Assembly (NCBI RefSeq): GCF_002157505.1
Contig: NZ_NFSC01000023.1
Coordinates: 1-64,000, forward strand
Length of the DNA stretch: 64,000 nt
Reading direction: 5' to 3'
Source: Arthrobacter agilis
GTDB lineage: Bacteria > Actinomycetota > Actinomycetes > Actinomycetales > Micrococcaceae
The notes under the pieces: model-generated
Seen by the model: only the letters and a program-made list of their open reading frames with translations
Databases searched by the model: none
What the model was told of the DNA's origin: nothing
Shown here: positions 36,378 through 56,996 of the stretch, piece by piece
Numbering within the stretch: position 1 is the stretch's first letter
How the letters are laid out: every line of letters begins with the position of its first letter
Position numbers and translations under genes: made by a program

Positions 36378-39272
<2,895 letters not shown>

Positions 39273-39281
39273 GAACCCGAC

Positions 39282-40415
39282 GTGAGCGAGCAGAGCAAGC
39301 ACACAGCCCTGTACACCCAGCACCAGGCGCACGGCGCGTCCTTCACGGACTTCGGCGGCTGGCAGATGCCCCTCAAATACCGCAGCGAGCTGGAGGAACA
39401 CCACACCGTCCGGAACGCCGCGGGCCTCTTCGACCTGTCCCACATGGGCGAGGTCCTCGTGAGCGGACCGCAGGCAGCGCAGTTCCTGAACTACGCCCTG
39501 GTCAGCAACCTCGCGGTTCTCGCCGTGGGCAAGGCCAAGTACTCGCTGATCTGCACCGCCGAGGGCGGCGTGATCGATGACCTCATCACGTACCGTCTCG
39601 CCGAGGAATCCTTCCTCGTGGTGCCCAACGCCTCCAACGCGCCCCTCGTCGCCGAGGAACTGCGCCTCCGCGCCAAGGGCTTCGACGTCGCCGTGGAGGA
39701 CCAGTCGGACGTCACGGCCCTCATCGCCGTGCAGGGACCGACGGCCGAAGCCGTCCTCCTCGATCTCGCGCGACCTGAGGGCGCCGGCATCATCCGTGAG
39801 CTGAAGTACTACGCCGTGGTGGAGCTCGAGCTCGCCGGCCTTCCCGTGCTCCTCGCCCGGACGGGCTACACCGGTGAGGACGGCTTCGAGATCTTCATCG
39901 GCAACAATCTGGCAGTGCGCCTCTGGGACGCCGCACTGCAGGCCGGGGGCCCGCACGGGCTGCTGCCCTGCGGTCTCGCAGCACGCGACTCGCTGCGCCT
40001 CGAGGCCGGGATGCCCCTGTACGGGCATGAGCTCTGCCTCGACACCAACCCCTTCGAGGCAGGCCTCGGGCCCGTGGTCAGCACCAAGAAGGCCGAGGAC
40101 TTCGTGGGACGCTCCGTGCTCGAGCCGCTGAAGGCCGTCGAGCCGGCGCGGCGCCTAGTCGGCCTCCGGGCCGTCGGACGACGGTCGGCACGCGCCGGGT
40201 ACGCCGTCGTCGCCGACGGCAGGACCGTCGGCACCGTGACCTCGGGACTGCCGAGCCCCACCCTGGGGTACCCTGTGGCACTCGCCTACGTCGAATCGGA
40301 GTACGCAGCCGTCGGCACCGAGATCCAGGTGGACCTTCGCGGACGACCCGAACCCTTCACCGTGATCGCCAGGCCGTTCTACAAGCGCGCGAAGCCCGCC
40401 GGGACAGCCCAGTGA
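39282..40415 (+). CDS. gcvT: Glycine cleavage system T protein (aminomethyltransferase)
   Basis: A 377-residue THF-dependent T protein that releases ammonia and forms 5,10-methylene-THF. It shows [13 protein letters not shown] near the N terminus, [10 protein letters not shown], then [13 protein letters not shown], and [19 protein letters not shown] in the second domain. The start is GTG at 39282. The next gene, sdaA, overlaps its stop (GTGA). No gcvH gene lies between or beside them in this window. Confidence 0.96.
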
Positions 40416-41785
40416 CGATCAGCGCCTTCGACCTGTTCAAGATCGGCATCGGGCCCTCGAGCTCCCACACGGGCGGACCGATGACGGCGGCCTACCTCTT
40501 CACGGAAGTGCTGCGCACCGGGAGCCTGCTGTCCGACGTGCAGCGTGTGCAGGTGGACCTCTTCGGATCACTCGGGTCCACCGGCCACGGGCACGGTACC
40601 GTCAAGGCCGTGCTGCTCGGGCTCGAGGGCGAGCAGCCGCACCTGGTGGATCCGACGTCCGCGGACGCCCGCATCACCCGCATCGGCGAGGTCCGGTCGC
40701 TTAACCTCGGGGGGAAGCATCCGATTCCGTTCCAGCCCGATACGGATGTCGTCCTGCACCGCCGCAAGCGCCTCGACTACCACACCAATGGTATGCGCTT
40801 TTCGGCATATTCAGCCGCGGGGGATGTTATGCAAACGAGGGAATACTTCTCCGTCGGCGGTGGATTCGTGCTCGACGAGGACCAGATCGGTTCGGAGACG
40901 GCGGTCCTCAAGCCCGTACCGGTGTCCCACCCCTTCGGCACCGCCGACCAGTTGCTGGGCATCTGCCGGGCCACCGGGCAGTCCTTCTCCGACGTCGTCC
41001 TGGCCAACGAACTGGCCTGGCGCACCGAGGACGAGGTGCGCGCGGGGCTGCTGGAGATCTGGGGCGTCATGCAGGACACCATCCGGCGCGGTACGACGAC
41101 GGGCGGGATCCTGCCCGGCGGACTGAAAGTCCGGCGCCGAGCAGAACGGCAGCGGCAGCTGCTGGAGAAGGCCGACGACCCGAACGACCGCCTCGGCACC
41201 ATGGAGTGGGTCACCCTCTTCGCCCTGGCCGTCAACGAGGAGAACGCAGCGGGCGGGCGCGTGGTGACGGCGCCGACCAACGGGGCCGCCGGCATCATCC
41301 CCGCGGTCCTGAAGTACTACGTGGACTTCGTCCCGGGAGCCGACGACGACGGCGTCGTCCGGTTCCTGCTCGCCGCCACGGCGATCGGCTCGCTCTTCAA
41401 GAAGAACGCCTCGATCTCCGGGGCCGAGGTGGGCTGCCAGGGCGAGGTCGGCTCCGCCTGCGCCATGGCCGCCGGAGCGCTGGCCGAGGTCCTGGGAGGG
41501 ACCCCGGAGCAGGTCGAGAACGCCGCAGAGATCGGGATCGAACACAACCTCGGGCTGACCTGCGACCCCGTGGGCGGCCTCGTGCAGATCCCCTGCATCG
41601 AGCGGAACGCCGTCGGCGCGATGAAGGCCATCACCGCGGCACGCATGGCCGTGCGCGGTGACGGCCAGCACCACGTCTCGCTCGATGTCGCCATCAAGAC
41701 CATGCGGGACACCGGCGCGGACATGATGGACAAGTACAAGGAGACCGCCCGCGGCGGGCTCGCCCTGAACGTGGTGGAGTGCTGA
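40412..41785 (+). CDS. sdaA: L-serine ammonia-lyase (single-chain, iron-sulfur)
   Basis: A 457-residue Fe-S serine dehydratase converting serine to pyruvate and ammonia. The beta domain begins with [20 protein letters not shown] and the alpha domain carries [18 protein letters not shown] and [19 protein letters not shown], with cluster-binding cysteines including Cys in [17 protein letters not shown] start overlapping gcvT. Together with GcvPT it would drain glycine via serine (by glyA elsewhere) to pyruvate. Confidence 0.95.
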
Positions 41786-48654: not shown

Positions 48655-49287
48655 TTATCGTGCGGCGACGGCCAGGAAGGTGATGGGCAGGTCCAGCAGT
48701 TCCAGGGGACCGTGGGGACCTTCTCCCTCCAGGAGGAGTGCGTCGCCGGCCTCCATCGTGTATTCGTAGGCTCCGTGGCCGTAGGTCATCCGCCCTGAGA
48801 GCATGTAGATGAACTCCGTGCCGGGGTGCTGGAACAGCGGAAAGATGTCCGACGCATCCGTCAGGGTCACCAGCGTCGGTTCGATGGCGTCGCTGCGCCC
48901 TTTGAGGACCCCCAGCACGCGGTACTCGTGGCCGTGCTGCGTTCCGCTGCGCACGGTCACGCTGCCCTGCCCGTTCTTCGTGAAGGCAGCGTCCCGGTCC
49001 GTGTCGGCACCGCGGAACAGCGCCGTGACCGGGATCTCGAGCCCGTCCGCCAGTCGCTGCAGCGTCGTCAGGGAACAGGACGTGCTGGCCGTCTCGATCT
49101 TCGACACCATGGCCTTCGACATCCCGGTGCGCAGGGCGAGTTCCGAGGCGGAGATCCCCTGGGCCAGCCTGTACCGGCGGACTTGGCCGGCGATGACCCG
49201 TTCCAGCTTCCCTGTCACGCTGTCGTCCGCGTCGTCCGCCCTGGTGTCCGCCGTTATGTCTCCCGTCCCGCCGGCCCGCCTCATCAT
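48655..49287 (-). CDS. XRE-family regulator with C-terminal cupin
   Basis: A 210-residue regulator: helix-turn-helix at about residues 30-90 (LAQGISASELALRTGMSKAM, then KIETA) and a cupin at about 130-205 (QHPGTEFIYMLSGRMTYGHG). This PuuR/HipB-cupin type usually senses amines or amino acids. It is the last gene of the seven-gene nitrogen operon; its ATG overlaps the amidohydrolase stop. The first 25 residues are acidic and low-complexity. Confidence 0.9.
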   Translation of the reverse strand: MMRRAGGTGDITADTRADDADDSVTGKLERVIAGQVRRYRLAQGISASELALRTGMSKAMVSKIETASTSCSLTTLQRLADGLEIPVTALFRGADTDRDAAFTKNGQGSVTVRSGTQHGHEYRVLGVLKGRSDAIEPTLVTLTDASDIFPLFQHPGTEFIYMLSGRMTYGHGAYEYTMEAGDALLLEGEGPHGPLELLDLPITFLAVAAR

Positions 49288-50606
49288 CCCGCCATCATAG
49301 GTGCGTGCAGGGGAGATGCCGGGGTGCCGGCCGCTTCCAGCAGGCCCTGGAGGACGTCCGCGAGCGCTCGTGCTCCTGCTTCCGCATCGGCATCCTCAAC
49401 CCATTCCTCCGGTGAGTGCGAGATGCCGCTCGGGTTCCGGACGAACAGCATGGCGGTGGGGAGACGGCCGGCCAGCACGCCCGCGTCGTGGCCGGCGCCC
49501 GTGTCCAGGACCGGTGCCACCGGAAGGAGCGTCCGGAGCCGGTCCCGCAGGCCTGGATCGAAGTGCACGGTGGGGCTGAGGGACTCGGCGTCGAGTGTGA
49601 CCGTGCAACCCTCCTCCGCCGCGATGAGGCGGGCCCGGGAGTGGATCGATTCGACGAGGGAGGCCGTCACCTCGTCCCGCGGGTGCCGGGCGTCGATCCA
49701 CAGGTCCACACGGGACGGGATGACATTGGTGCCGCCCGGGACAGGCTGGAGCCGGCCCACCGTCGCGCGTGCATCCCGGTACTGCAGGGCGATGTTCCTG
49801 ATCTCCACCATCATGCGGGCGGCGGCGACCATCGGGTCGCGGCGGTCGGTCATGAGGGTGGTCCCTGCGTGGTTGCCCTGGCCGTGGACCGACAGCCTCC
49901 ACCGGCCGTGGCCGAGGATGGACGTGCCGACAGCCACCGGCTGGTCGAGGTCGATCAGTCCCCTGCCCTGTTCGACGTGCAGCTCGACGAACACCCCCAG
50001 CTGGTCGAGCGCTGCGGGGTCCGCTCCGATCCGCCGGGGGTCCTGCCCGTTCGCCGCGGCCACGTCGGCGTAGGTGTCGCCATCGGCGTCCTTGAGGCTG
50101 CGGGCCTTGTCCGGATCCAGGGCGCCCGTGAGCAGCCGGGAGCCCAGGCACGCCACCCCGAACCGGGAGCCTTCCTCCTCGGGGAAGACGGCGATGGCCA
50201 GCGGACGCCCGGGACGGAACCGGCGGCTCCGCAGGATGTCGACGGCGACGAGCGCTGATGCCACGCCGAGTGGACCGTCGAACTCCCCGCCGCCGGGAAC
50301 GGAGTCGAGGTGACTGCCGGTGACGACGGCGTCCCTGCGCTCGCCGTCGTCCGTGTCCCACCATGCCCAGACGATCCCATTCGCGTCGGTGGAGACGTCC
50401 AGTCCCCGGCGTCGGGCCTGCTCGGTGAACCAGCAGCGGAGTTCCGTTTCGGCGCTCGAGAAGACCGGCCTGGAGTAGCCGCCGCGACGGGCGTCCGTTC
50501 CGACGCCGGAGATGTCCCGCAGGAGACCCGATACGGTGCCTGCCGCCGGGTCTGCTGTCGGGTCTGCTGTCGGGTCTGCTACCGGGTCGTCGGTCGAGGG
50601 GCGCAC
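49284..50606 (-). CDS. M20-family amidohydrolase (N-carbamoyl amino acid hydrolase / allantoate amidohydrolase type)
   Basis: A 440-residue metalloenzyme that removes N-carbamoyl groups from amino acids. Metal ligands are visible: His in TGSHLDSVPGGG, Asp in FDGPLGVAS, Glu in FPEEEGSRFG, His in VELHVEQGRG and His in GISHSPEEW. GTG at 50606 with AGGAAGG upstream. Residues about 8-22 are an Asp-Pro repeat coded by three 12-bp tandem units. Next to a sarcosine-oxidase-like gene, N-carbamoylsarcosine is a possible substrate. Confidence 0.87.
   Translation of the reverse strand: MRPSTDDPVADPTADPTADPAAGTVSGLLRDISGVGTDARRGGYSRPVFSSAETELRCWFTEQARRRGLDVSTDANGIVWAWWDTDDGERRDAVVTGSHLDSVPGGGEFDGPLGVASALVAVDILRSRRFRPGRPLAIAVFPEEEGSRFGVACLGSRLLTGALDPDKARSLKDADGDTYADVAAANGQDPRRIGADPAALDQLGVFVELHVEQGRGLIDLDQPVAVGTSILGHGRWRLSVHGQGNHAGTTLMTDRRDPMVAAARMMVEIRNIALQYRDARATVGRLQPVPGGTNVIPSRVDLWIDARHPRDEVTASLVESIHSRARLIAAEEGCTVTLDAESLSPTVHFDPGLRDRLRTLLPVAPVLDTGAGHDAGVLAGRLPTAMLFVRNPSGISHSPEEWVEDADAEAGARALADVLQGLLEAAGTPASPLHAPMMAG
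50548..50589 (+). repeat. 12-bp tandem repeat in the amidohydrolase 5' end
   Basis: GGGTCTGCTGTC occurs twice in full, then once with the end changed to ACC, then partly. It codes for repeated Ala-Asp-Pro-Thr units in the N terminus of the minus-strand protein. It may vary in copy number. Confidence 0.7.
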
Positions 50607-50671
50607 TGGCTGAACCTTCCTGGAGGGAACGGGAGGAATCTAGACGGGAGGAACCGACTCGCGGGTCCGGA

Positions 50672-51808
50672 TCAGCGCGCGCTGATCCGGGTGGTGGCCT
50701 GCCGGAACCGCGGGGGGAGATCCGCCGAGCCGGTTGCGAGATCGGCCGCCCAGTGACCGATGAGGGGTGCGAATTTCGCGCCGTGGCCGGAGCAGGGGGA
50801 GACGACCGTCAGTCCGTCTGCCCGATCGAGGAAGAACTCCTCGTCGGGGGTGTTCGTGAAGAGGCAGGTGGTCTCCGCGTAGGGCTCGGGGTCGAGGCCC
50901 GGCAGGTACCGCCGCACGTAATCGACGACCCGGTGCCGGTTCGCAGGATCGATGACGCCGTCCTGCTGTGCCGCGGACGGGAGAACCTTGCCCCCGTTGA
51001 ATTCGGCCACCTTCTGGCCCGAGAAGTCCGCGTCCCGCCCGCCGGGCAGCCCGTAGACCTGGATGTCCGCGGCCTTGTGGATGAACGTGGGCCAGGGGCC
51101 GGCGTCGCGGTACCGGAAGTGGAAGGCCTGTTCCTGCCGCACCGTGATCTCCGGGATGCCGGAGAGGAACCCCTTCGGCAGCGGGAGGTTTCCCAGCAGG
51201 TCCGGGAGCCAGCCGCCGGCAGCGACGACGACGTTCCCGGTGACCACAGAGGTGCCGGTGTCGGACAGGACACGGTAGGCGTCGCCCTCCTGTTCCACTC
51301 CGGTGACGGTCCAGCCGGTCCTGAGTTCCGCGCCGAGTCCGACGGCCAGGTCCACCATCGCGGTGACCGAGGTCTCGGCGTCGATCACCCCCGCTCCCGG
51401 GTGCCACAGCACCGGGGTGTCGAAGGCGATGGCGGGCCAGCGGGACCTCGCCTCGTCCGCGCTGAGGACTTCATGGTCGACGCCGGCCCCGGCGAGGATC
51501 CCTGCCAGCAGCTCGGGCTGCCGACCTGCGCCGTAGTCGACGGCACCGGTCGGGGTGATGAGCTGCTTCCCACTCGTCCGCTCGAGCTCGTCCCAGAGGC
51601 TCTTCGACTCCACGACCGCCCCCGTGTAGAAGGGATCAGGGTAGGCGTAGCGGAAGATGCGCGCGGATCCGTGGGAGCTGCCGCCATGGCTGGCCGGTAC
51701 GTCGCGTTCCAGGATGGTCACCGAGTGGCCGCGCGCGGCGAGCTGCCAGGCGGCGGCGGCACCGGCCAGCCCGGCGCCGACCACGACGAAGTCGGAGGAA
51801 TCGGTCAT
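50672..51808 (-). CDS. solA: Monomeric sarcosine oxidase / N-methyl amino acid oxidase-like flavoprotein
   Basis: A 378-residue FAD oxidase of the MSOX/SolA type, which demethylates N-methyl amino acids to give formaldehyde and H2O2. It has VVGAGLAGAAAAWQLAARGH at the N terminus, GSSHGSARIFRYAY, and TTCLFTNTPDEEFF with the cysteine that binds FAD covalently in MSOX, then SGHGAKFAP. It is fifth in an operon after glnT-glxBCD, 9 bp after glxD. It may oxidise N-methylglutamate or sarcosine. The gene symbol is by similarity. Confidence 0.85.
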   Translation of the reverse strand: MTDSSDFVVVGAGLAGAAAAWQLAARGHSVTILERDVPASHGGSSHGSARIFRYAYPDPFYTGAVVESKSLWDELERTSGKQLITPTGAVDYGAGRQPELLAGILAGAGVDHEVLSADEARSRWPAIAFDTPVLWHPGAGVIDAETSVTAMVDLAVGLGAELRTGWTVTGVEQEGDAYRVLSDTGTSVVTGNVVVAAGGWLPDLLGNLPLPKGFLSGIPEITVRQEQAFHFRYRDAGPWPTFIHKAADIQVYGLPGGRDADFSGQKVAEFNGGKVLPSAAQQDGVIDPANRHRVVDYVRRYLPGLDPEPYAETTCLFTNTPDEEFFLDRADGLTVVSPCSGHGAKFAPLIGHWAADLATGSADLPPRFRQATTRISAR

Positions 51809-51817
51809 GGAGGAACC

Positions 51818-53197
51818 CTAGCCTGCGCCGGGGATCCAGCTGGTCCCTGCGAGGGGAACCCGTGCCATGGCCGATGCCTCGATCGTGAGGGCCACGAGGT
51901 CCTCGGGTTCGAGGTTGTGCAGGTGCGACTTCCCGCAGGCCCGGGCGATGGTCTGGGCCTCCATGGTGAGGACGCGGAGGTAGTTGGCCAGACGGCGGCC
52001 AGCGGCGACCGGGTCGAGCCGCGAGGCGAGGTCCGGGTCCTGGGTGGTGATGCCGGCAGGGTCGCGGCCGTCCTGGAAATCGTCGTAGAAGCCGGCGGCG
52101 GACCCGAGTGCCGAATATTCGGCCGCGTACCGGGGGTCATTGTCGCCGAGGGCGATGAGTGCCGCGGTGCCAATCGCGACGGCGTCGGCCCCCAGGGCCA
52201 GAGCCTTGGCGACATCGGCACCGGTGCGGATGCCACCGGAGACGATGAGCTGGACCTTCCGGTGGACGCCCAGTTCCTGCAGAGCCTGGACCGCCTGGGG
52301 GATGGCGGCGAGGGTCGGGATGCCCACGTTCTCGATGAAGACCTGCTGCGTCGCTGCCGTCCCTCCCTGCATGCCGTCGACCACCACCACGTCGGCGCCG
52401 GACTTCACGGCGAGGGCGGTGTCGTAGTACGGGCGTGAGGCGCCGATCTTGACGTAGATGGGTGTCTTCCAGTCGGTGATCTCCCGGAGCTCGCCGATCT
52501 TGATCTCGAGGTCGTCCGGTCCGGTCCAGTCCGGGTGGCGGCTGGCCGAGCGCTGGTCGATACCCACGGGCAGGGTCCTCATCCCGGCCACGCGCTCGGT
52601 GATCTTCTGGCCCAGCAGCATGCCGCCGCCGCCGGGCTTGGCGCCCTGGCCCAGAACGATCTCAATGGCGTCCGCCTTGCGCAGGTCGTCCGGGTTCATG
52701 CCGTAGCGGGACGGGAGGTACTGGTACACCAGGTGCCTGGACTGGCCGCGCTCCTCGGGCGTCATGCCGCCGTCGCCCGTGGTGGTCGAGGTGCCGACCT
52801 CGCTCGCCCCGCGGCCGAGCGCTTCCTTCGCATTGGCCGACAGGGCGCCGAAGCTCATGCCGGCGATGGTCACCGGGGTCTGCAGGTGCAGGGGCCTGCT
52901 GGCGTGCCGGTCGCCGAGGACGACGTCGGTATCGCACTTCTCGCGGTAGCCCTCCAGCGGATAGCGGGACATGGACGCGCCGAGGAAGAGCAGGTCGTCG
53001 AAGTGCGGGACCCGGCGCTTCGCACCCCAGCCGCGGATGTCATAGACCCCGGTGGCGGCGGCCCGCTGGATGTCGGCGATGGTCGCCCGGTCGAAGGTGG
53101 CGGATTCGCGCAGGCCCAGCGCGGCGATGTCCTGGGCAGGGAGCTCCTGGACGGGAACCTGTGCGGGAATGTCCTGCTGGATCGGGGTGAGGGTCAT
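51818..53197 (-). CDS. glxD: Glutamate-synthase-like FMN protein (GlxD / N-methylglutamate synthase subunit C type)
   Basis: A 459-residue FMN-binding protein equivalent to the central synthase domain of GltB. FMN and iron-sulfur motifs are seen: TPVTIAGMSFGALSANAKEA, GDGGMTPEERGQSRHLVYQY, GAKPGGGGMLLG, VVDGMQGGTAATQQ and GGIRTGADVAKALALGADA. As a separate subunit it works with GlxB and GlxC. In methylotrophs the equivalent three-gene set makes N-methylglutamate from methylamine and glutamate. The upstream gene glxC ends 13 bp before it. Confidence 0.9.
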   Translation of the reverse strand: MTLTPIQQDIPAQVPVQELPAQDIAALGLRESATFDRATIADIQRAAATGVYDIRGWGAKRRVPHFDDLLFLGASMSRYPLEGYREKCDTDVVLGDRHASRPLHLQTPVTIAGMSFGALSANAKEALGRGASEVGTSTTTGDGGMTPEERGQSRHLVYQYLPSRYGMNPDDLRKADAIEIVLGQGAKPGGGGMLLGQKITERVAGMRTLPVGIDQRSASRHPDWTGPDDLEIKIGELREITDWKTPIYVKIGASRPYYDTALAVKSGADVVVVDGMQGGTAATQQVFIENVGIPTLAAIPQAVQALQELGVHRKVQLIVSGGIRTGADVAKALALGADAVAIGTAALIALGDNDPRYAAEYSALGSAAGFYDDFQDGRDPAGITTQDPDLASRLDPVAAGRRLANYLRVLTMEAQTIARACGKSHLHNLEPEDLVALTIEASAMARVPLAGTSWIPGAG

Positions 53198-53210
53198 GGA
53201 TTCGTCCTTG

Positions 53211-53951
53211 CTAGTACGACGTCGAGTTGTCGACGTGGAAGTGGTACAGGTTCCGGGCGGAGCCGTAGCGCCGGAAACCTGCGGGGTCCTCGGTCCGGCC
53301 GGCCGCCGCGAGCAGTCCGGCGAGTTCTTCGAGGTGCTCCGCCCTCATGGGTTTCTCGATGCAGTCCGCACCCAGGGAAGCGACGGAGCCTTTGACGTAG
53401 ATCCGCGCCTCGTAGATGGAGTCCCCGAGGGCGTCGCCGGCATTGCCGCAGACCACCAGGCGGCCTGCCTGGGCCATGAAGGCGGACATGTGGCCGATGT
53501 CCCCACCCACCACGATGTCCACGCCCTTCATGGAGATCCCGCAGCGGGCCCCGGCATTGCCGTCGATGACGACCAGGCCGCCGTGGCCCGTGGCCGCCGC
53601 CGACTGCGAGGCGTCGCCCTTCACGTGGACGCTGCCGGACATGATGTTCTCCGCCAGTCCCACGCCGGCATTGCCGGTGATGGTCACCCTGCCCTTCTGG
53701 TGCATCCCCGCCGCGTAGTAGCCGGCGTGGCCCTCGATGGTGACGTCGACGTCGGCATCGATCCCCACGGCGAGGCTGTGCTTCCCGCCGGGGCTGGTGA
53801 CGGTCCAGGACTGGCCGTCGACGGCGTCGTGCAGCGCCTGGTTCAGCTCGCGGACCGGGCTGTCGTCGAGGTCGACTCCGATGCCTGCAGGGATGCCTTC
53901 AGGGGCTGTGGCTGGGGGCATGTCGGCCTCGGGAATTGTCAGAGTGACCAT
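53211..53951 (-). CDS. glxC: GltB C-terminal-domain-like protein (GlxC)
   Basis: A 246-residue beta-helix protein matching the GXGXG C-terminal domain of glutamate synthase. Repeats of G-x-x-G-x-x-x are visible (GHAGYYAAGMHQKGRVTITG, GNAGARCGISMKG, GNAGDALGDSIYEARIYVKG). It is a structural subunit of the three-part enzyme formed with GlxB and GlxD. It overlaps glxB by 13 bp. Confidence 0.88.
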   Translation of the reverse strand: MVTLTIPEADMPPATAPEGIPAGIGVDLDDSPVRELNQALHDAVDGQSWTVTSPGGKHSLAVGIDADVDVTIEGHAGYYAAGMHQKGRVTITGNAGVGLAENIMSGSVHVKGDASQSAAATGHGGLVVIDGNAGARCGISMKGVDIVVGGDIGHMSAFMAQAGRLVVCGNAGDALGDSIYEARIYVKGSVASLGADCIEKPMRAEHLEELAGLLAAAGRTEDPAGFRRYGSARNLYHFHVDNSTSY

Positions 53952-54847
53952 GTGTAGACCTTTCCGGGTTCCGGTTCGAAGATGCGGGCGTGATCGATGC
54001 CGGGCAGGGACGCGAGCGCCCGGTACTCGGAGGCCATGGCGACGTAGTCGTGGGTCTCGGCGATGATCGCCGGCTTGCAGGCGATCGGGTCGCGGACCAC
54101 GGCCATGCTGTCCGCGGTCGTGACGACGAGGGTGTAGAACCCGTCGAGGACCTTGCCGAGGTTGACCAGGGCCTCCTGCAGGGTGTCGCCCTGCTTCAAC
54201 CGTGACGCGATGTACCGTGCGCCCACCTCGGTGTCGTTCTCGGAATCGAACACCGCGCCTTCGCGCTTCAGCTCACGCCGGACCGTCGCATGGTTGGAGA
54301 AGGAGCCGTTGTGGACCAGGCAGAGGTCGTCGGCGACGGAGAAGGGGTGCGAGCCACCCGCGGTGACCGCGGACTCCGTGGCCATCCTGGTGTGGGACAG
54401 GCCCTGGCTGCCCGCCATCGCTGCCAGGCCGTGATCTGCCGCGATCTCCATGGGATGCCCCACACTCTTCATCACGGCGACGTGCTGTCCGCGGCCGATG
54501 ATGGTGGCGCCGGGCAGGGTCCCACCCACCGCCTTCGCCAGCAGGTCGGTGTCGACGGCGGCGCTCACCAGGGTGGTGTCGCCCACCACCTGGACCGCGG
54601 TCCCTGCGTCAGCGGGGAGCAGATCGGCGATGCCATCGGTGATCCCGGCAAGGCTGAGGCCCTGGTCCTTGCCCAGCAGGCTGAGGGTGGAGGTGCCCTG
54701 CTTCACCAGTTCCGGCGAGTTGTACACCGCCAGGCCGGCGGAGTCGGGTCCCCGGTCCACGATCTGGCAGAGCATCGAGGACAGCAGGCTGCCAAGCTGG
54801 GGATGCAGGAGGGGGTTGCGCAACTGCAGCGCGGCGATTCCGCACAT
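53939..54847 (-). CDS. glxB: Class II glutamine amidotransferase (GlxB)
   Basis: A 302-residue Ntn-type glutaminase domain with the nucleophile Cys2 (MCGIAALQ), DRGPDSAGLAVY, SHTRMATESAV, CLVHNGSFSNH and DTEVGARYIA. It would release ammonia (or accept gamma-glutamylmethylamide to release methylamine) for the synthase subunit GlxD. ATG at 54847, 38 bp after glnT. Confidence 0.9.
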   Translation of the reverse strand: MCGIAALQLRNPLLHPQLGSLLSSMLCQIVDRGPDSAGLAVYNSPELVKQGTSTLSLLGKDQGLSLAGITDGIADLLPADAGTAVQVVGDTTLVSAAVDTDLLAKAVGGTLPGATIIGRGQHVAVMKSVGHPMEIAADHGLAAMAGSQGLSHTRMATESAVTAGGSHPFSVADDLCLVHNGSFSNHATVRRELKREGAVFDSENDTEVGARYIASRLKQGDTLQEALVNLGKVLDGFYTLVVTTADSMAVVRDPIACKPAIIAETHDYVAMASEYRALASLPGIDHARIFEPEPGKVYTWSL

Positions 54848-54885
54848 GGGAGTCCTTTACGGGAAGTAGGTGTGGTCGGGTCGGG

Positions 54886-56259
54886 TCAGATCGAGGTCAG
54901 GTACGTGCGGATCTCCCAGTCACTCACCTGGTTGTGCCACTGGAGGAATTCCTCCTCCTTGGCGTCCGCGTAGTAGGTGCCGATTCCCGCGTCACCACTC
55001 AGGCTGGCCAGGATCACAGGGTCCCTGCGGAGTGCCTCGACGGCGTGGAGCAGGGTGGCGGGAAGAGAGTGGGCGTCCGGCCGGGACTCGCCCGGGCCGG
55101 ACGGGTGGCCAGGGTCGAGGGATTTCTGCACGCCGTCCAGGCCGGCCGCGAGGGCGGTGGCGATGGCGAGGTACGGATTGGCGGAACCGTCCCCGGAGCG
55201 CAGTTCGATCCGCTTGTCGTCCGGGACCCGGATCATGTGCGTTCTATCGTTCCCGCCGAAGGACGCCTTCCGGGGTGACCACGTGGCTCCGGAGGAGCTG
55301 GTGGTGGCCCCGGTGCGCTTGTATGAGTTGACGGTCGGTGCGAGGAACGCCTGCAGGGCCGGCGCATGCTCCAGGACCCCGCCGATGAAGGAGTAGGCGA
55401 GCTCCGACAGCCCGAGGCCCCGCTCGCCGTCCTCGCCCGGGAACAGCGCCTCGGCACCGGACCACAGCGAGAGATGGAAGTGCAGGCCAGTGCCGGTACG
55501 GTCCGTGAACGGCTTCGGCATGAACGTCGCGGTCATGCCCCGCTGCTCGGCCAGGATGTTCAGGATGTACCGCAGGGAGATCACGCGGTCGGCCGTGGTC
55601 AGGGCATCCGCATAGTTGAAATTCTGCTCGAACTGCCCTGCCGCATCCTCATGGTCGTTGGCGTAGTTGCCCCATCCCAGGCTGTTCATCGCCGTGGAGA
55701 TCGACGTGAGGTGCTCGTACATGCGGGTGACGCCGCGGGCGTCGTAGCAGGGACGGGGTGAGTCGTCGAGGGGGTCGGCGGTGCTGAGGGTGCCGTCGGC
55801 ATTCTTCGTGACGAGGAAGTACTCGACCTCGGCACCGATCTTCGCCTGCATCCCCTGGTCGGCGAGGCGGGCCAGGATGTTCTTGAGGATGACGCGGGGT
55901 GCATAGGGCCAGGGCTTGCCGTCGACGTGGGGGTCGCAGTGGATGATCGCCAGGCCCTCCTTGATGAAGGGAACCGGGGTGAAGGAGGCGAGGTCCGGTA
56001 CGGCGATCAGGTCGGAATCCTGCGGTTTCTGGCCGATGAGGCCTGCGGCGTAGCCGGCGAACCCCATCGCTCCGGCCTCAAGCTCGTGGGCTGCTTCGAC
56101 GGGAACGAGTTTGGCGCACGGTTTGCCCGTCATGTCGACGAAGGTGGCCAGCAGGAACCGCACATCGTGGGCCCTCGCGATGTCCGCCAGGGAGATCGGC
56201 CCGGCCCCGAGTTGGGTGTCGGGGAGGGTTGCCGGCTCGGGGTTCGCAAGACTTGTCAT
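54886..56259 (-). CDS. glnT: Type III (GlnT-like) glutamine synthetase / gamma-glutamylmethylamide synthetase family
   Basis: A 457-residue member of the glutamine synthetase family in the GlnT/GmaS group. It has DMTGKPCAKLVPVE, EVEYFL for metal binding, NHD-type NYANDHEDAAGQFEQNF, GTGLHFHLSLW and the ATP loop SYKRTGA with RKASFGGNDRTHMIR. It ligates ammonia or methylamine to glutamate. As first gene of the glnT-glxBCD-solA run it may be a GmaS; the choice between the two substrates cannot be made from sequence. The start is ATG at 56259 with AGGACA upstream. Confidence 0.9.
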   Translation of the reverse strand: MTSLANPEPATLPDTQLGAGPISLADIARAHDVRFLLATFVDMTGKPCAKLVPVEAAHELEAGAMGFAGYAAGLIGQKPQDSDLIAVPDLASFTPVPFIKEGLAIIHCDPHVDGKPWPYAPRVILKNILARLADQGMQAKIGAEVEYFLVTKNADGTLSTADPLDDSPRPCYDARGVTRMYEHLTSISTAMNSLGWGNYANDHEDAAGQFEQNFNYADALTTADRVISLRYILNILAEQRGMTATFMPKPFTDRTGTGLHFHLSLWSGAEALFPGEDGERGLGLSELAYSFIGGVLEHAPALQAFLAPTVNSYKRTGATTSSSGATWSPRKASFGGNDRTHMIRVPDDKRIELRSGDGSANPYLAIATALAAGLDGVQKSLDPGHPSGPGESRPDAHSLPATLLHAVEALRRDPVILASLSGDAGIGTYYADAKEEEFLQWHNQVSDWEIRTYLTSI

Positions 56260-56317: not shown

Positions 56318-56346
56318 TTGACTCATAGTAATCAGTGCCGTGTTAC
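56318..56346 (+). promoter_or_regulatory. Possible promoter for the hutD-like gene
   Basis: TTGACT (56318-56323) and TGTTAC (56341-56346), with 17 bp between them, lie about 50 bp before the hutD-like start. The second hexamer lies within one of two GTGTTAC repeats (56295-56301, 56340-56346), so regulators could act here and on the divergent glnT promoter. Confidence 0.35.
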
Positions 56347-56396
56347 AGGCGTGTGTACTGGGCGTTAAAAGTGCCCACCCGTGGAATGCTGGATCG

Positions 56397-56996
56397 ATGG
56401 ACGGCACCCCGCAGTACCCGGTCGCTCCGCACGCCCGGATCATCGACCCCCTCCTGCTCGAGGGCAGCCCGTGGGCGAACGGGGGCGGCATCACGTACGA
56501 AGTCCTCAAGGCGCCCCCGGGCACTGGCTACTCCGACTTCGACTGGCGCCTCAGCATCGCCGAGATCGTGCAGGACGGTCCCTTCTCCTCCCTGCCGGGA
56601 GTGGACCGTACCTTCGTGATGGGCTCCGAAGGACTGCTGCGGATGTCGGTCGACGGTGAAAGCCGCGACCTGAGGCTGGGCGCGCTCGCAGCATTCCCCG
56701 GCGAGGTCGACGTCAGCGTCCGGGTCCTGGAGGGACCAACCCGGAACCTCAACCTGATGACCCGGCGGACGGTGTGCGAGGGGTCCATCGACGTGCAGCG
56801 CGTCAGCGGCGCGCTGCATGTCGGCGGTACCAACGGCCCCGCCGCCCTGGTCGTACTGTCGGGGACCGTGCGGCTGGGCGGGGACGGAGTGCTGCAGCCG
56901 TTGCAGGTGCTCGTTCCTGGCTGCTCCGAAGAGGAACTCTCCTGCGAGCACGCGCTGCTCGCTGCCGTCCACGTCCGGTTCCGCCCGCAAACCTGA
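56397..56996 (+). CDS. HutD-family protein
   Basis: A 199-residue cupin-like protein of the HutD/Ves family: SPWANGGGITYEV near the N terminus, DFDWRLSIAEIVQDGPFSS and LPGVDRTFVM are family hallmarks. HutD is thought to limit histidine-utilisation activity, but no other hut gene is in the window. It is divergent from glnT, so it may belong to nitrogen control. ATG at 56397 was chosen; an in-frame start at 56340 adds unrelated residues. Confidence 0.85.
   Translation: MDGTPQYPVAPHARIIDPLLLEGSPWANGGGITYEVLKAPPGTGYSDFDWRLSIAEIVQDGPFSSLPGVDRTFVMGSEGLLRMSVDGESRDLRLGALAAFPGEVDVSVRVLEGPTRNLNLMTRRTVCEGSIDVQRVSGALHVGGTNGPAALVVLSGTVRLGGDGVLQPLQVLVPGCSEEELSCEHALLAAVHVRFRPQT

Follow-up and report, generated by a model that had tools for sequence, protein, structure and literature searches.

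Known N-methylglutamate systems

The N-methylglutamate pathway for methylamine, described from methylotrophs and marine bacteria, is built from GmaS, MgsABC and MgdABCD, the last of these following a four-subunit scheme, and genome surveys score methylamine use by the presence of gmaS, mgsABC and mgdABCD. The operon considered here lies in a 64,000-nucleotide stretch of Arthrobacter agilis DNA (NZ_NFSC01000023.1, positions 1 to 64,000; hereafter the window), which lies on contig 16 among the 31 contigs of the 3.88 Mb host genome. Like that pathway, it has GlnT/GmaS-like and GlxBCD/MgsABC-like genes in one cluster; unlike it, it lacks MgdABCD and has instead a flavoprotein that resembles monomeric sarcosine oxidase (MSOX) and consists of a single chain, together with a hydrolase of the M20 family and a regulator of the XRE-cupin type. 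As a system it is a variant of the known pathway, common in Arthrobacter relatives, rather than something of a new kind. The explanation that we favour, at somewhat better than even odds, is that an N-methylglutamate oxidase of MSOX type would replace MgdABCD in an operon assimilating the nitrogen of methylamine (or of a small primary amine).

In SAR11, glnT and glxBCD have been proposed for methylamine and a soxBDAG set as the N-methylglutamate dehydrogenase; the SAR11 genome also contains a monomeric sarcosine oxidase gene, but this adjoins an aminomethyltransferase and a betaine transporter and not glx (PMC3160333, in the excerpt available). Similarly, the Mycobacterium gma-mgsABC clusters provide an actinobacterial GmaS with MgsABC, although there, according to the excerpted part of the source, mgdA-D are proposed for the dehydrogenase step and no single-chain partner is mentioned (PMC5023230). 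A search of the open-licence literature turned up no paper that directly describes a single-chain N-methylglutamate oxidase. If such an enzyme is at work here, Actinobacteria with gmaS and mgsABC but without mgdABCD would have the full pathway, methylamine use in soil may be underestimated, and a one-protein, oxygen-using N-methylglutamate oxidase would be a convenient assay enzyme, one that would also show the pathway's oxidative step to have been replaced more than once.

The operon and its predicted pathway

The original prediction described a glnT-glxBCD operon joined to an oxidase-like flavoprotein and an M20 hydrolase, and all seven genes are where it had put them, on the minus strand, in the order GlnT, GlxB, GlxC, GlxD, a 378-residue flavoprotein, M20 amidohydrolase and XRE-cupin regulator. 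These genes and a divergent neighbour are as follows:

54886..56259, minus strand: GlnT, type III glutamine-synthetase-like, predicted gamma-glutamylmethylamide synthetase (GmaS); TIGR03105, 587 bits (cut-off 470)
53939..54847, minus strand: GlxB, subunit with a glutamine amidotransferase class II domain (GATase_6/GATase_7), N-methylglutamate synthase subunit by synteny
53211..53951, minus strand: GlxC, GXGXG-domain subunit; PF01493, 38 bits
51818..53197, minus strand: GlxD, subunit with an FMN glutamate-synthase domain; PF01645 (Glu_synthase), 307 bits
50672..51808, minus strand: MSOX-type single-chain FAD oxidase, predicted N-methylglutamate oxidase; DAO domain, 163 bits
49284..50606, minus strand: M20 amidohydrolase of hydantoinase/carbamoylase type; NF006770, 613 bits (cut-off 372)
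48655..49287, minus strand: XRE-cupin protein, probable operon regulator; HTH_3 and Cupin_2
56340..56996, plus strand: HutD-family gene, divergent from GlnT; PF05962, 120 bits

Because the spacing between neighbours is only -13 to 65 bases (successively 38, -13, 13, 9, 65 and -4 from GlnT to the XRE-cupin gene), the seven genes fit one predicted transcription unit.

The gene order, the families, the conserved residues, the fold match and the recurrent linkage are seen directly, and from them we infer every reaction and substrate of the following scheme. GlnT would use ATP to join the amine to glutamate, giving gamma-glutamylmethylamide, which GlxBCD would convert into N-methylglutamate; the MSOX-type flavoprotein would then oxidise this product with oxygen to glutamate, formaldehyde and hydrogen peroxide, doing with one chain what otherwise takes a four-subunit N-methylglutamate dehydrogenase. 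Control of the operon probably falls to the XRE-cupin protein, and the M20 enzyme would be accessory.

The single-chain flavoprotein

The operon itself lacks the four-subunit MgdABCD, and a single-chain DAO protein is found in its place. The claim that this protein is an MSOX-like oxidase standing where MgdABCD was expected is backed by its fold and by its recurrent coupling to GlnT-GlxBCD. An AlphaFold model built on 38 sequences (pLDDT 92.8) matches the monomeric sarcosine oxidase 2gb0 over 359 residues, with a Z of 45.3 and a root-mean-square deviation of 2.2 Å after re-comparison of the Foldseek matches, and the beta subunit of heterotetrameric sarcosine oxidase scores lower on it (Z 38.9); as modelled, the flavoprotein has the MSOX fold across its whole chain. 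With the monomeric sarcosine oxidases (Bacillus MSOX 2gb0, N-methyltryptophan oxidase 2uzz and 7exs) it shares, besides this fold, the Cys for covalent FAD and the equivalents of Arg49, Arg52, Lys265 and Lys348. It differs from them in its low identity (24-34% in structural alignments), in having Phe for His269 and Lys at Glu247, in falling below the curated family cut-offs (236 of 257 bits for NF008425 and 200 of 480 bits for TIGR01377) and in its genetic coupling to GlnT-GlxBCD.

We take the catalytic set of Bacillus MSOX to be Arg49, Arg52, Tyr254, Lys265, His269, Cys315 and Lys348, with Lys265 as the oxygen-activating residue and Cys315 as the site of FAD attachment. With the Bacillus residues positioned by eye on the printed alignment, all of them except His269, i.e., six of the seven, are kept in 92/92 orthologue rows, as R50, R53, Y252, K266, C315 and K345 in the window protein. 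Since the equivalents of Lys265 and Cys315 are kept, the flavoprotein is likely an oxidase with covalent FAD.

Linkage of the flavoprotein with the Glx genes

How general is this arrangement? Among 297 genomes of the order, 240 contain some MSOX match at E 0.001, and the orthogroup proper (at least 50% identity over nearly the whole chain) is found in 34, a 35th genome (G125) having a 66% fragment; the next full-length matches past the orthogroup reach at most 42% identity. A scan of named genomes gave 60 loci. One genome in the same family as the window has an MSOX row identical to that of Zhihengliuella salsuginis (rows L065 and L181), which by itself places the window probably in Micrococcaceae. 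In total, 94 usable MSOX loci were gathered by similarity to the window protein, forming a non-random sample that includes near-duplicates and leaves out the fragment L076 as well as L075, L079, L183 and L185. A locus was labelled Glx when at least two of GlnT, GlxB, GlxC and GlxD were found within 9 kb of MSOX. Genes of the relatives were called with a simple codon-position G+C caller, with approximate starts and a few genes recovered only by tblastn; the window's own row of neighbours was assigned by hand, and L145, whose contig holds only the end of GlxD, was moved from the M20-only class to Glx.

According to their neighbours, the loci comprise 33 with Glx (from Arthrobacter, Pseudarthrobacter, Sinomonas, Microbacterium, Nocardioides, Paractinoplanes and others), 14 with an ornithine-cyclodeaminase-like (OCD) gene and no Glx, 8 with formate-tetrahydrofolate ligase, 7 with M20 only and 32 with none of these. 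In the Arthrobacter and Pseudarthrobacter loci of the scan, GlxD adjoins MSOX in 22 of 24, and those 22 have M20 in 21 cases and Amt nearby in 19; their XRE gene usually follows M20, and in four loci it precedes GlnT. The adjacency of Glx and MSOX is not due to chance. After L069 and L070 (open frame of 829 residues) were left out of the alignment and the tree, the Glx label requires 9 changes on the resulting 92-row tree, at least 8 of them on well-supported branches, and shuffled labels need 27. The coupling has therefore arisen or disappeared repeatedly, a pattern that suggests a functional link, although the orthogroup clearly also exists without Glx. In the genomes G121 and G201, moreover, GlnT-GlxBCD stands without an adjoining oxidase and this MSOX lies elsewhere in the genome.

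Two side observations concern the sample. In L148 (Kocuria dechangensis), fragments of GlxB and GlxC are all that is found upstream of MSOX and the genome gives no GlxD match, so that operon has probably decayed. The loci with formate-tetrahydrofolate ligase near MSOX (L045-L048, L050, L052, L061 and L168) belong to Brevibacterium-type genomes.

Lysine 245

Lys245 of the window protein aligns with Glu247 of Bacillus MSOX, two residues past the position of Met245. It is present in 45/45 rows with Glx or OCD adjoining, in 6/6 with the module elsewhere in the genome and in 12/41 with neither found, counts that come from related rows and are not independent. Two of the six in-trans rows (L045 and L054) belong to genomes G230 and G114, where an OCD module adjoins a second MSOX, and a third (L073) was counted on the basis of an OCD relative with 53% identity; L167, at first placed in the M20-only class, has GlxD elsewhere in its genome. 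Sister contrasts, counted by hand on the printed tree, give seven for the residue and none opposing it, besides a tie (L057/L064) and two mixed outcomes. The favourable ones are the Arthrobacter clade with the window/L137, L172/L174, L051/L043+L058, L042+L056/L049+L063, L154/L062, L164+L171/L163 and L155/L060; the mixed ones are Actinomadura (Lys in L158 and L170, Gly in L169 and L173, all without the module) and L167 beside the Brevibacterium clade. A cation at this position could bind the side-chain carboxylate of N-methylglutamate, an exploratory idea noticed after the fact. A scan of the 378 MSOX positions found no residue present in at least 95% of the Glx rows and in less than 30% of the others.

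GlnT and the Glx subunits

The best solved relatives of GlnT are 7cql (388 bits) and 9qur, a glutamate--methylamine ligase (334 bits), and other glutamine synthetases reach at most 191 bits. Although deposited as a type III glutamate--ammonia ligase, 7cql is taken here as RhGmaS because all nine residue letters named in the accessible part of PMC7948447 match it with an offset of 20. These residues, which form the amine pocket or distinguish glutamine synthetase from GmaS according to that part of the source, are Lys30, Ala48, Tyr147, Gln175, Asp177, Glu179, Glu186, Asn188 and Trp300. With 7cql and 8ool positioned by eye on the printed alignments, the window GlnT keeps eight of these nine, including the discriminators Ala48 and Trp300, and has Ala at Gln175, a pattern repeated in 30/30 aligned GlnT rows. 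Within the limits of the residue list, the comparison supports the GlnT/GmaS identity assigned originally: GlnT looks like a GmaS rather than a glutamine synthetase, and its amine may differ.

By family and gene order, a predicted GmaS and a predicted three-subunit synthase are present in one cluster. Identity of GlxD is 93-99% across the 22 loci of Arthrobacter and Pseudarthrobacter in which it occurs, and 91% in Sinomonas. Rates within one operon (50672-53197) are very unequal, since the MSOX adjacent to this GlxD is only 68-75% identical to its Arthrobacter/Pseudarthrobacter relatives.

Other partners of GlxD and other possible feeders of the oxidase

GlxD is rare, being found in 17/396 genomes of the order (E 1e-100), in 51/396 of the phylum (at a looser E 1e-60) and in 1/5 of the same-genus genomes in the order search. 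A census of partners covered the 27 loci from the order and phylum searches whose GlxD has at least 78% identity. MSOX adjoins GlxD in four of them (window, L051, L055 and L057), a SoxB-like single-chain DAO protein in another four (L081, L082, L084 and L085) and another DAO protein with M20 in one (L083), which makes 9/27 with a single-chain DAO partner. In ten (L103-L112) the partner, as far as the contig reaches, is an iron-sulphur (Fe-S) protein with electron-transfer flavoprotein (ETF) subunits; a DAO protein follows ETF in six of these and the other four run off the contig. Three loci have the four-subunit type, i.e., SoxA with or without SoxB (L087, L088 and L090), and two have MSOX elsewhere in the genome (L101 and L102). 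In L086, L089 and L091 no oxidase partner was found within the stretch at E 1e-15, although a more relaxed cut brings out an MSOX-like piece (27%) in L089. The four-subunit enzyme is therefore a minority partner among the 27 close loci; in loci whose GlxD is more distant (52-69% identity), SoxA/SoxB sets occur more often (e.g., L092, L094, L097, L098, L115 and L118). Other actinobacterial Glx operons hold other single-chain DAO flavoproteins at the MSOX position.

The ten Fe-S/ETF loci share the order GlnT-GlxBCD, an Fe-S protein of about 710 residues, EtfB, EtfA and, where the contig allows, the DAO flavoprotein, and they probably represent an ETF-linked dehydrogenase version of the pathway.

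The other side of the oxidase varies as well. In the OCD loci (L147, L149, L154, L156, L164, L165, L171, L180, L184, L040, L041, L053, L069 and L070, from Microbacterium, Agromyces, Gulosibacter and Brevibacterium, among others), a protein of the NF004848 type replaces GlnT-GlxBCD beside MSOX, M20 and Amt, the last two being present in 14/14. NF004848 is named tyramine oxidase subunit B, and the genes in question are ornithine-cyclodeaminase/SbnB-like. For the protein of L149, the nearest solved structure is 4m54, a putative ornithine cyclodeaminase (112 bits), followed by an alanine dehydrogenase (94) and a pyrroline-2-carboxylate reductase (90), and the next-best curated family is SbnB, below its cut-off. 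Enzymes of the SbnB/alanine-dehydrogenase type couple an amine to an oxo acid or separate the two. An OCD enzyme forming N-methylglutamate directly would explain the swap for GlnT-GlxBCD.

All this allows a wider proposal, which we offer tentatively, as possible rather than probable: that Actinobacteria have a modular methylamine shuttle whose constant part would be a single-chain N-methylglutamate oxidase. This oxidase would be fed either by the ATP-driven GlnT-GlxBCD or, in several Microbacteriaceae and Brevibacterium, by the SbnB/alanine-dehydrogenase-like NF004848 enzyme (from methylamine and 2-oxoglutarate, with no ATP), and the oxidase slot behind GlnT-GlxBCD would be swapped among MSOX, other single-chain DAO proteins, ETF-linked DAO dehydrogenases and MgdABCD.

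Points against an N-methylglutamate oxidase, and alternative readings

Several observations weigh against the explanation that we favour. In the flavoprotein, the His269 of Bacillus MSOX is Tyr or Phe in 88/92 rows (Phe in the window). Lys245 was singled out after viewing about 19 positions (it was spotted, together with Q250, among 19 hand-picked active-site neighbours) and ranks tenth of 378 by mutual information, behind Q250, H41, N192, F60 and five C-terminal positions. Furthermore, 41/92 MSOX rows come from genomes where neither GlxD nor OCD was found, so there the substrate must have another source. In GlnT, the Ala at Gln175, one of the GmaS residues named in the accessible source, is the residue also found in the aligned glutamine synthetase 8ool, and the amine may therefore not be methylamine. 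Finally, the same genome encodes a heterotetrameric sarcosine oxidase that could do the N-methylglutamate step, and two copper amine oxidases that could oxidise methylamine directly, methylamine oxidase of this class being a known other route in Arthrobacter according to the excerpted part of PMC5023230.

The Ala at Gln175 leads to an unlikely alternative, in which a larger amine (ethylamine, isopropylamine or similar) would pass through a gamma-glutamyl-alkylamide and an N-alkylglutamate, from which MSOX would release the matching aldehyde and glutamate. Aldehyde dehydrogenase genes near L057, L128, L130, L132 and L155 agree with it, but such genes are common neighbours anyway and the other eight GmaS residues of the comparison are kept. 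An Amt-type transporter is found near 23/33 Glx-MSOX loci; transporters of this type carry methylammonium, which makes them a better fit to it than to bulky amines.

Could the flavoprotein instead be a normal sarcosine oxidase whose substrate M20 releases from N-carbamoylsarcosine, with GlnT-GlxBCD as a separate function in the same operon? The MSOX fold would suit it, M20 resembles N-carbamoyl-L-amino acid hydrolases (structure 3n5f, 207 bits), and M20 adjoins MSOX even where Glx is lacking (in the 7 M20-only loci and the 14 OCD loci among the 94). We consider it improbable, however. The hydantoinase-B gene PF02538 was found in 6/14 controls and not in the host genome (other hydantoinase types lay outside the search), the genome already has a sarcosine oxidase in a betaine-type cluster, and M20 is 64.6% identical to the M20 of the hut operon in the same genome. 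Besides, M20 is absent from 3/33 Glx-MSOX loci that keep MSOX (L139, L148 and L172) and is thus the more dispensable of the two. The suggestion that M20 adds N-carbamoylsarcosine as a second entry is not supported, in view of these same findings, i.e., the hut likeness, the PF02538 result and the three loci lacking M20.

The expected absence of MgdABCD, for its part, holds for the operon only. Five GCV_T matches are found in the host genome, including one SoxA on contig 22 (1253 bits, cut-off 1164), which is accompanied by SoxB (629 bits, cut-off 529) and a SoxG-like protein (134 bits, cut-off 144), SoxD being outside the test. The neighbours of this single set are GlyA, L-serine ammonia-lyase, a BetI-like regulator (below cut-off) and an FAD/GcvT fusion of dimethylglycine dehydrogenase (DMGDH) type, with no Glx genes, and it is best read as the sarcosine oxidase of betaine breakdown; the genome search proposed for mgdABCD is in this respect ambiguous, having returned a homologous enzyme in a betaine-type cluster. 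A SoxBDAG enzyme oxidising N-methylglutamate in trans, with MSOX serving another substrate, is a doubtful reading. SoxBDAG is homologous to MgdABCD, and two Arthrobacter strains without gma-mgs clusters have mgdA-D homologues, as given in the excerpted part of a 2015 paper (PMC5023230), but the sarcosine context of SoxB, SoxA and SoxG speaks against it and the recurrent Glx-MSOX coupling would be left unexplained.

It is very unlikely that MSOX oxidises N-methylglutamate twice, to N-formylglutamate, with M20 removing formate and free formaldehyde being avoided: the hut likeness of M20, HutD-like genes near MSOX in 17/94 loci (window included) and formate-tetrahydrofolate ligase in 8/94 would agree with it, but M20 is missing from the three loci named above and a Streptomyces avermitilis COG0624 protein tested as an alternative N-formylglutamate deformylase was inactive (PMC3223725, in the part available; this protein belongs to the same broad family as M20 and may be of another subfamily).

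M20, regulator and neighbouring genes

The role of M20 as an N-formylglutamate deformylase had at first been favoured, since the hut operon (L186:8480-14028, contig 18) has the order hutU-M20-hutF-hutI, with M20 where the last hut enzyme is expected, and the PF05013 deformylase was not found in the host genome; it was later lowered because of the inactive Streptomyces protein. A relative of the XRE-cupin gene lies within 9 kb of MSOX in 33/94 loci, and also beside many Glx operons with other partners. Elsewhere in the window, GcvP, GcvT and L-serine ammonia-lyase follow one another (36378-41785, plus strand), forming a glycine/one-carbon cluster about 7 kb from the operon.

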